DNA of 47,103 nucleotides, taken from NCBI GenBank assembly GCA_903895195.1, contig CAITSZ010000034.1:1-47103 (forward strand), given 5' to 3'. Each line of letters begins with the position of its first letter. Position 1 is the first letter of the stretch. Shown here piece after piece: positions 13,741 to 24,227 of this stretch. A program made the position numbers and the translations under genes. This DNA comes from an uncultured Chlorobiaceae bacterium (GTDB taxonomy: Bacteria; Bacteroidota; Chlorobiia; Chlorobiales; Chlorobiaceae). Below the pieces are notes generated by a model, which had not been told where the DNA came from, did no database searches, and was given only the letters and a program-made list of their open reading frames with translations.

Positions 13741-14433
13741 TCATGGTGTTATTAGATTGCAAAAAATATCATCATTCCATGTTGCAGGATTGTTCACAAT
13801 ATATGAGGCAATGGTTTGATACGATTGTTCATCACGAATGATATGTTCATGATAATTGCGCTGCCACAATTTCGCGTTGAATGGTTGCCAGCCAAAATTT
13901 TTAATCCCGCGAATATATGCAACAGTAGTTATTGATTTGAATGCATCCAACATATCCCCAACCGTTTTGTCTGCGATCCCCGTCGATAACATTTGGTTGG
14001 ATTGCACGGCATTGGTTTGTTGATTTGAATAAATCCCGATTTTGTTTCCCATCCCCGTAGGGGCAATCCCTTGTGGTTGCCCTATATGTGGTTGCCCTGT
14101 TTCCGATTCATTTTCATCGTTGCCCATCATTTTGTTTTGGGCGACCACAAGGGTCGCCCCTACGGGGATGATTTGCAATATTCCGTGAAAATGATTGGGC
14201 ATTACAATAAATTCGTGCAATTCAATGTTCGTAAATCTATTGGTTAATTCATGCCATTGGGTTTCTATCATTTGTCCGGCATCATTCAATATCATTTCGC
14301 CATCCGCAATATTCCCAAACATAGATGCCCTGTCCTGACAACATATTGTCACAAAATATGCACCTGCCTGCGAATAATCGTATTCCTTCAATCGTGTTGA
14401 CCGTCGATGATATGTATTTGGGTTGTATGGCAT
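13741..14433 (-). mobile_element. REP-associated tyrosine transposase (RAYT, IS200-like), with REP sequences inside its own coding region
   Basis: The 230-residue protein is a Y1 HUH transposase of the RAYT type: SQAGAYFVTICCQDR near the N-terminus, EFIVMPNHFHGIL with the HUH pair, and NYHEHIIRDEQSYQTIASYI holding the likely catalytic tyrosine. Between them lies an unusual linker (about residues 90-150) with PVGATLVVAQN and GQPQGIAPTGMG, both translated from REP hairpins at 14139-14167 and 14053-14082. RAYTs mobilise or maintain REP sequences. The gene separates cbiB from cobO. It is open and ends in the usual DDIF..-type tail, so it may still be active. Confidence 0.88.
14053..14167. repeat. 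REPIN-like inverted REP pair inside the RAYT gene
   Basis: Two REP units face each other. The unit at 14053-14082 begins CCCCGTAGGGGCAA and ends GGTTGCCC. The unit at 14139-14167 is nearly its reverse complement: GGGCGACC, loop ACAAG, GGTCGCCCC, TACGGGG. The second has a perfect 8-bp stem. Both are kept in the RAYT reading frame. Confidence 0.8.
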
Positions 14434-14444
14434 TGGTTTATTGA

Positions 14445-14776
14445 TTTGAATGCGTCAAACATATCCCCAATCGTTGTTTTGCAATCCCCGTACGGGCAAT
14501 CCCTTGTGGTTGACCTGTTTCCGGTTTATTGTCATGGTTTTGGGCGACCACAAGGGTCGCCCCTACGGGCCGTTGTTGATATTTATTTGGATTGTAGAAC
14601 ATTGATTTATTCCTATTCGGGTTATTCATTTGAATGCGTCAAACATATCCCCAATCGTTGTTTTGCAATCCCCGTACGGGCAATCGTGGTTGACCTGTTT
14701 CCGGTTTATTGTCATGGTTTTGGGCGACCACAAGGGTCGCCCCTACGGACCGTTGTTGATATTTATTTGGATTGTA
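14445..14776. repeat. Two tandem ~150-bp deletion derivatives of the RAYT gene, each with a REP pair
   Basis: Copy A is 14445-14596 and copy B 14629-14776, spaced 184 bases; they differ by a 4-base deletion and few substitutions. Read on the minus strand each copy joins the RAYT start (YNPNKYQQR, compare YNPNTYHRR), a REP pair (A: 14486-14515 with 14542-14569; B: 14670-14695 with 14722-14749), and the RAYT segment IGDMFDAFK (compare VGDMLDAFK). They therefore look like internally deleted, non-coding derivatives stacked in front of the full gene. Confidence 0.75.
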
Positions 14777-14822
14777 CGGCATTGGTTTGTTGAATTGAAT
14801 ACATCACCATTTTGTTTCCCAT

Positions 14823-14851
14823 CCCCGTAGGGGCAACCCTTGTGGTTGCCC
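14823..14851. repeat. Single REP unit next to the cbiB 3' end
   Basis: This single unit begins CCCCGTAGGGGCAACC and ends GGTTGCCC, forming a hairpin 28 bases from the end of cbiB. It is the outermost member of the REP cluster that accompanies the RAYT gene. Confidence 0.7.
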
Positions 14852-14879
14852 TATTTCCGATTGCCCTGTTTCTGGTTTA

Positions 14880-15827
14880 TTAAAAAAAATGCCTGATCCC
14901 CATACCTGCACCGAGAAAGAGCACGGCAGTCATCCACATCAGCGCTATGCTCTGGCGGATGACAAGCGGCGTGCACTCGCCCGGCTTTACGCCGAGGAGC
15001 GGTGCCTGATAGACAACTCCGCCATAACTTCGTTCCCCGCCCAGTGTCACGCCGAGGGCGCCGGCAAAAGCTGATTCAGGGTAGCCCGAGTTGGGACTTG
15101 CGTGAAGCCTCGCTCCCCGGAAAACCGCCTTGAACGTATCAAAAAACTTGAGCTTGCCGATAGCCGCCGCTGCCGCTATAGTCAACACGGTCAATCGTGC
15201 GGGTAGATAGTTGGCAATATCATCCAGCCTTGCTGCGGCCCATCCGAACTCCAGATAACGGTCATTTTTATATCCGAACATGGAATCGAGCGTGTTGATG
15301 GCTTTATACGCTATTGCGCCAACCGGACCGAACAAGAGCGCATAGAACAAGGGCGCAGTCACACCGTCGACGGTGTTTTCGGCCACACTTTCTGTGGCTG
15401 CAAGAGCTATGCCTCCTTCGTCGAGAGATGCCGTATCGCGCCCGACCATGAGGGATACCTTTTCGCGGGCCAACTCTCTGTCACCTGCTTCAAGTGCGGC
15501 CTGAACGGCTGTCGCATGGTCGCCAAGGTCCCTGAGAGCAATAGAGCTGTAGAGCAGGTAGATGCTCAGGGCGAGGCCTGCCACCCGATGCACCTGGCTT
15601 AAGAGAGTGATAAGGAGCCAGGCTGAGAATGCAGAACCTCCGACAACAACAATAACCGCCACTACACCAGCCAGACGAAGCGACAGAGTGCTGCTTCGCA
15701 GCCATGTTTCGGTTCTCTGGGCAAGCCACCCAATCCCTTTGACAGGATGAAACATCCCGCGAGGATCACCCAGGCTGAGATCAAGGGCAAATGCCAGGGG
15801 GAGAATAAACTCGTCCATAAATGCCAT
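14880..15827 (-). CDS. cbiB: Adenosylcobinamide-phosphate synthase (CbiB/CobD type)
   Basis: The 315-residue membrane protein attaches the aminopropanol linker (or its phosphate) to adenosylcobyric acid. Signature segments are DLSLGDPRGMFHPVKGIGWL near the N-terminus, VGRDTASLDEGGIALAATES and VAENTVDGVTAPLFYALLFG in the middle, and SPNSGYPESAFAGALGV. Length is normal. It follows the decarboxylase remnant by 12 bases, which would have supplied its aminopropanol-phosphate substrate, and precedes the REP/RAYT insertion that now separates it from cobO. Confidence 0.94.
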   Translation of the reverse strand: MAFMDEFILPLAFALDLSLGDPRGMFHPVKGIGWLAQRTETWLRSSTLSLRLAGVVAVIVVVGGSAFSAWLLITLLSQVHRVAGLALSIYLLYSSIALRDLGDHATAVQAALEAGDRELAREKVSLMVGRDTASLDEGGIALAATESVAENTVDGVTAPLFYALLFGPVGAIAYKAINTLDSMFGYKNDRYLEFGWAAARLDDIANYLPARLTVLTIAAAAAIGKLKFFDTFKAVFRGARLHASPNSGYPESAFAGALGVTLGGERSYGGVVYQAPLLGVKPGECTPLVIRQSIALMWMTAVLFLGAGMGIRHFF

Positions 15828-23818: not shown

Positions 23819-24227
23819 TCTCTATTTCTGGCGCGACATCGTAAAATGGGCAGAGCCTTAGTTTAAAAGGCTGTGTGGCTGGCCCCAGAGAACTCTGAAG
23901 CATGAAAGCCTATCGCTATGTTGATTGAAGCAAGAGGGTATGCTATAGGGCATGGCTGGTTACATATGAAAAGAAAATGGCCTTTTTCTATACATGTCGT
24001 TCTGCTCCTTTGCTTTTGCATTCACTTTCGGTGATGAACATGGCCAGATTGATAAAATATTTCGTTTGACCACTACAACGGAGGGCGACCACAAGGGTCG
24101 CCCCTACGGCGAAATAATGGAATCATCCGTTTTGGGTATGGCATGTTTTATTACGGACTCAATTTCTGTGAAGCGCTTATTATGTTTTACTTCCTTCAGA
24201 AATCATCTTTTTTTGGCATTTTCCCTG
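23819..24227. other. Decayed stretch with gene debris and a REP
   Basis: Just after the KilA-N stop, 23801-23862 reads in another frame HGLPPDLYFWRDIVKWAEP and stops; LYFWRD resembles a DUF4143 ATPase fragment, but weakly. A REP unit sits at 24083-24109. The Nudix reading frame extends back through the REP (as GDHKGRPYG), which I treat as chance. No other feature was seen. Confidence 0.4.
24083..24109. repeat. Isolated REP unit of the RAYT family
   Basis: It reads GGGCGACC, ACAAG, GGTCGCCCC, TACGGC, matching the 14 kb REP copies. It lies 10 kb from the RAYT gene in a decayed intergenic stretch, showing that the family is dispersed. Confidence 0.75.

Follow-up and report, generated by a model that had tools for sequence, protein, structure and literature searches.

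How REPs spread, and how a REP-associated tyrosine transposase (RAYT) stays matched to its REP, are open questions, and a gene that contains its presumed target joins the two physically. One such gene lies on a 47,103-nucleotide stretch of DNA (here, the window) from a green sulfur bacterium (Chlorobium) with a genome of 2.49 Mb. The locus raises the question of how REPs came to lie in frame within the gene, and whether they are tolerated there or selected.

The open reading frame encodes a RAYT

We found that the open reading frame at 13741..14433 (minus strand) is a RAYT (TnpAREP) gene. Its 230-aa product contains PNHFH at residues 79-83 (HUH residues H81/H83), WQ at 190-191, and YIVNNP at 211-216 with the catalytic Y211, and the columns of H81, H83, W190, Q191, and Y211 are invariant among 54 relatives. 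In a profile search, the protein matched NCBIfam NF047646 (REP_Tyr_transpos) with an E value of 3e-17, in two stretches that are split by the linker and with a score of 62.8 bits, which misses the curated family cutoff of 80 bits. An AlphaFold model (pTM 0.72) resembles IS200/IS605 transposases and aligns with REP-bound TnpAREP (4ER8; E=2e-5, rmsd 2.8). In the model, strand E81-88 is followed by an insertion (~89-157) and then by a long helix, H158-180.

Subclass 2.4 of TnpAREP (Bertels group 4) is defined in Table 1 of Quentin et al. 2018 (PMC6006769) by NH[IFV]H, the W in WQ, and YIxNNP, and the window protein carries all three. As in the subclass, an insertion that varies in length and sequence, here residues ~89-157, comes after the HuH strand and before the helix that follows. 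The protein also ends 14 residues past NNP and so has, like the subclass, no conserved extension at its C terminus. Taken as a whole, the best explanation, and one that we consider likely, is that the protein would be an HUH/Y1 nuclease-ligase that acts on single strands, is related to IS200/IS605 transposases, and belongs to subclass 2.4. A complete IS200/IS605 insertion sequence, with ends and several copies, was not found; the gene occupies a single locus and is present or absent together with the array described below. Two further NF047646 matches lie in the same genome (C45:144534-144947 and C17:74112-74498). The open frames that hold them, 333 and 340 codons long, are of a different type and longer than the window gene.

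The subthreshold NCBIfam score would suit a pseudogene, or a spurious frame running through a cluster of REPs, as would the orthologue from genome G217, whose N-terminal part is disrupted by an insertion. However, the core has a dN/dS of 0.13 in one half and 0.14 in the other when compared with the G141 orthologue, the HUH, WQ, and Tyr motifs are complete, and the core of the model is well folded. We therefore rejected this explanation on dN/dS and regard it as very improbable. The RAYT protein appears to be kept, with the linker tolerated. The linker has a dN/dS of 1.06 in the same comparison, is hypervariable among relatives, and is predicted to be disordered (pLDDT < 50 at residues 112-151). 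Judged by dN/dS, the linker evolves without amino acid constraint.

The linker contains an inverted REP pair and a copy of the upstream repeat unit

A sequence-only reading of this DNA had described an inverted, in-frame REP pair between the HUH and tyrosine parts of the gene. The sequence and the translation of the reading frame confirm this, although the intervals that it gave (14053-14082 and 14139-14167) are slightly too wide and include flanking CCCC/GGGG. REP 1, GTAGGGGCGACCCTTGTGGTCGCCC (14139..14163, minus strand), has a GTAG foot, a perfect 8-bp stem, and a 5-nt loop and is read in frame as VGATLVVA, with GTA GGG GCG as V91-G92-A93. REP 2, GTAGGGGCAATCCCTTGTGGTTGCCC (14057..14082, plus strand), is inverted relative to REP 1 and has one bulged base in its stem; the gene strand through it reads GGG CAA CCA CAA GGG ATT GCC CCT ACG (GQPQGIAPT). 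Both are hairpins of the single-foot type, and both sit between H81/H83 and Y211, in agreement with the in-frame REP between HuH and Y that is described for subclass 2.4.

The inserted piece exceeds the REP pair. It spans about 187 nt (13980..14166, minus strand) and consists of the REP pair, a spacer, a junction, and a copy of the start of the gene. In a self-comparison, 14166-13980 (187 nt) aligned with 14569-14401 at 68.8% (E=3e-23) and 14112-13980 (133 nt) aligned with 14881-14750 at 85.7% (E=5e-40). The copy of the gene's 5' end (13980..14015, minus strand) is out of frame; the equivalent of the start ATG is at 14010-14012, and it is read as ..TNAVQSNQMLSTG. It was recognized from repeat family D1, in which 13978-14036 and 14399-14457 are 75% identical.

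The upstream flank (14435..14881, minus strand) consists of tandem units of ~180 nt, each with a REP pair, a RAYT "GDMFDAFKS" fragment, and a RAYT start fragment. Two of the units are 93% identical over 177 nt, and the GDMxDAFKS fragment is 86-87% identical to the RAYT gene. The array REPs lie at 14542-14566, 14722-14746, and 14827-14851, the outermost of which was found in the genome-wide REP search as GGGCAACCCTTGTGGTTGCCC (14831..14851, plus strand). The array places GT[AG]G-tagged REPs beside the gene, as described for subclass 2.4; no GTAG REP was seen 3' of the gene in the sequence inspected. The junction between FKS and the start fragment is found in the array and in the linker only. 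Because the linker has a junction that is otherwise exclusive to the array, copying ran from the array to the gene.

The RAYT gene and its array fill a gap of 1164 nt between cbiB and btuR. In the sister species (G157), where BtuR is 91% identical, the gap is 45 nt and the whole of RAYT plus array is missing. In another Chlorobium (L165 in G201), the cbiB-btuR junction holds a lone REP only, which resembles the REP in the linker of that genome's own RAYT (L023).

A contig search with the window protein alone recovered only the two nearest orthologues, and a plasmid search gave distant relatives only, in four records. The G141 orthologue (L010), which is 87% identical, has the same gene-start copy in its linker, and its REP 1 hairpin is decaying, with about 2 of the 8 stem pairs gone. 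The G217 orthologue (L011) has a second REP copy in place of the gene-start copy. The insertion in the N-terminal part of L011 is ~110 nt long, carries a GC-rich hairpin, and splits the gene into two frames.

REP copies cluster at the RAYT locus

The sequence-only reading had also proposed a genome-wide count of REPs. We found the REP core GGGGCRAYCCTTGTGGTYGCCC at 11 sites with 0 to 2 mismatches in the 2.49-Mb genome, and the bulged form of REP 2 at two additional sites, both at the RAYT locus; the exact bulged form had no second exact copy in the genome. The reversed pattern gave 0 in this genome, as did the other reversed-pattern controls, and we therefore rejected a chance origin of the repeats. 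At the RAYT gene, four of the 11 cores and the two bulged-form sites are packed into 0.8 kb. The remaining seven are dispersed singletons that appear to occupy gaps between reading frames or the region 5' to one; the one at 24083..24103 (minus strand), for example, is ~10 kb away and 5' of a Nudix-like reading frame. In terms of REPINs and BIMEs, the gene and the array have inverted REP pairs, while the seven dispersed copies stand alone. RAYT is the only confirmed gene in the genome with an internal copy of its REP.

The GTAG-REP of the upstream array and the seven dispersed sites is the presumed cognate site, and the window RAYT would be expected to recognize it. Because the in-gene hairpin matches the adjacent GTAG-REPs and the seven dispersed copies, it is reasonable to suggest that the enzyme carries its presumed target in its gene.

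Taken together, we think it probable that REP units are copied locally, or recombine, into a linker that tolerates them. According to this model, the array of REP-bearing units directly upstream would be the source, and one unit would have been copied into the stretch that separates the HUH strand from the Tyr half, through the RAYT acting on nearby single-stranded DNA or through recombination between repeats; we infer that the mode of copying was one of these two. A disordered surface linker may accept any sequence that is open and in frame. The protein would thus be longer by ~60 residues and still intact, because the disordered linker tolerates such sequence. Across the subclass, linker REPs may have been repeatedly gained, duplicated, reduced, and lost, with the reading frame (and the fold) filtering the survivors.

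Linker REPs come and go among relatives

The sequence-only reading had proposed a comparison with close RAYT homologues that lack the linker; we compared relatives with and without linker REPs. We drew on a protein search through 247 genomes of Bacteroidota, the only phylum sampled, which with added regions yielded 79 genes. Of 64 linker hairpins, 22 had a 12-mer in common with the 1.2-kb flanks of the same gene, compared with 2% for swapped flanks. L023 and L026, from one genus, share 90.6% identity across the stretch compared and are set apart by a REP-bearing, in-frame segment of exactly 60 nt. Additional in-frame differences separate L037 from L052 (18 nt) and L031 from L065 (75 nt, between two REPs). 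Intact relatives without a linker REP are L026, L086, L097, and L100. Six cases with the REP in frame 1 are scattered over the tree, as expected of independent insertions, although the tree, built for the Bacteroidota relatives, rests on a small number of columns and leaves many forks open, and we claim no number of gains. We concluded from the in-frame length differences and the scattered frame-1 cases that linker REPs come and go. A single ancestral insertion for all linker REPs was rejected on the frame-1 cases and the filled and empty sisters. The earlier suggestion that REP capture lengthened the protein is supported: the window linker copies a neighboring unit, is predicted to be disordered, and is unconstrained, and related genes differ by the presence or absence of an in-frame REP.

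Several RAYT linkers have grown into long tandem peptide repeats (L018 in G045, L013 in G123, L017 in G023, and L015 in G168). Among these are dozens of GDSLS/GEPLL units, VAPNNA units, and three copies of a REP-coded unit.

The linker palindrome exceeds what the peptide requires

If the linker peptide were the conserved item, the REP-like DNA would be a by-product of its codons. Peptides resembling V-[GE]-[AT]-x4-[PS]-L occur in many relatives, as this explanation predicts. However, the codons are fixed beyond the peptide: the V-[GE]-[AT] triplets of the linker are spelled GTA-GRG-RC in 49 of 62 cases, and in the conserved core only about one-fifth of valines are encoded by GTA. The best linker hairpin, by a score that takes no account of bulges, exceeded synonymous recodings (p<0.05) in 49 of the 79 genes, compared with 3 of 79 for the N-terminal control. 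In addition, the linker dN/dS is ~1, and the residues between the feet vary by clade while the palindrome stays. By these counts, the linker palindrome exceeds what its peptide requires. The sequence-only reading would have been undermined by relatives that encode the same linker peptide through unrelated codons; we looked for such cases among the relatives and found none. We rejected a peptide-driven origin on the recoding test and the use of GTA-GRG-RC, and we give it almost no credence.

An alternative that we consider unlikely is that selection maintains the in-gene hairpin as a cis-acting element of the RAYT gene, either for autoregulation by binding of the protein to its own gene or mRNA or for linkage of enzyme and target when the gene moves between hosts. 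The recoding result favors it. In the survey as a whole, the GTRGRGR foot is present in the linker of 54 of the 79 genes, in the N-terminal part of 11, and in the C-terminal part of 2, and the linker feet fall in the three codon phases at 60:6:0, with phase 0 used by 43 of the 47 distinct REPs that are open in two phases, all of these being counts that are not independent because the genes are related by descent. Also in favor of the alternative, we classified 72 double-foot REPs from 23 genomes and found 24 in frame in a RAYT linker, a further 15 no more than 900 nt from RAYT motifs, and 33 elsewhere. Among 19 distinct double-foot 28-nt linker palindromes, 99.6% of cells are paired, a value inflated by their having been picked for near-palindromy, versus 33 to 52% in slid controls. 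Changes on both sides were seen at 7 of the 12 pairs.

In support of the selected-site alternative, the hairpin can also be confined to the gene. In G025, G222, G168, and G073, we found no further genome-wide copy of the linker palindrome within 2 to 3 mismatches, and in G007 the three exact copies all lie in its three RAYT genes. These gene-only palindromes weaken the idea that every linker REP was captured from a dispersed family, and they count against the tolerant-linker reading in that no present-day dispersed family is visible as a source in the first four genomes. The one-frame bias and the paired changes also exceed what a tolerant linker predicts, unless common descent or renewed copying explains them.

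On the other side, the hairpin is decaying in the window's own clade (L010), intact relatives lack a linker REP, the scattered frame-1 cases are those expected of independent insertions, and covariation can stem from replacement by other REP copies. We are equally doubtful of a related proposal, that in this subclass the hairpin is a selected internal target that diversifies with its enzyme and whose perfect palindrome can persist as the sole copy in a genome; if true, enzyme and recognition site would be inherited as one gene. Given the filled and empty pair, the fixed frame, and the palindromes confined to the gene, synonymous recoding could distinguish tolerated junk from a selected internal site.

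At L022 in G007, three RAYT genes stand in tandem; two of them share a 28-nt palindrome with a third RAYT elsewhere, and the rest of that genome lacks it. L068 in G213 has the layout REP-RAYT(5')-REP-RAYT(3')-REP, in which the linker and the two flanks carry the same perfect palindrome, and a generic-pattern search turned up no additional copy.

Comparison with known systems

In-frame REPs within the RAYT gene have already been published as a trait of subclass 2.4 in PMC6006769, which describes GT[AG]G-tagged REPs both flanking the gene and in frame between HuH and Y. The window is thus a further case of a documented subclass trait and is not new in kind. It differs from the subclass as described there in that the insert also holds a whole array unit with the out-of-frame 5' end of the gene and in that its REPs are single-foot hairpins rather than "double foot." Neither the frame bias nor the confinement of palindromes to the gene is stated in the text of that paper, Figure S10 aside. 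What is added here is an insert larger than a REP pair, the frame bias, the gene-only palindromes, and the exact 60-nt filled and empty pair.

Intragenic GTAG REPs (PMC3733652) are similar in that GTAG hairpins lie in frame within open reading frames, often as pairs coding for 20 to 30 residues. Their host genes are mostly unrelated (for example, uvrA and dnaE2), whereas the host gene in the window is the REP's own presumed enzyme. Rickettsia palindromic elements, which are treated in the same paper, are likewise palindromes that form tolerated in-frame insertions in protein-coding genes; they and the CGTC-type families differ in having unrelated hosts.

E. coli REPs are present as hundreds of dispersed copies, whereas the window genome has about a dozen REPs. 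E. coli TnpAREP (4ER8) shares the fold, the GTAG plus hairpin target, and, by homology, the HUH/Tyr chemistry; it lacks the linker insertion and the in-gene REP, and its REPs have a bulge. The biochemical hallmark of TnpAREP is binding of the GTAG REP single strand and its cleavage at CT/CA (assays in PMC8266576). An unusual detail of the window gene is that its own start has been copied into itself.
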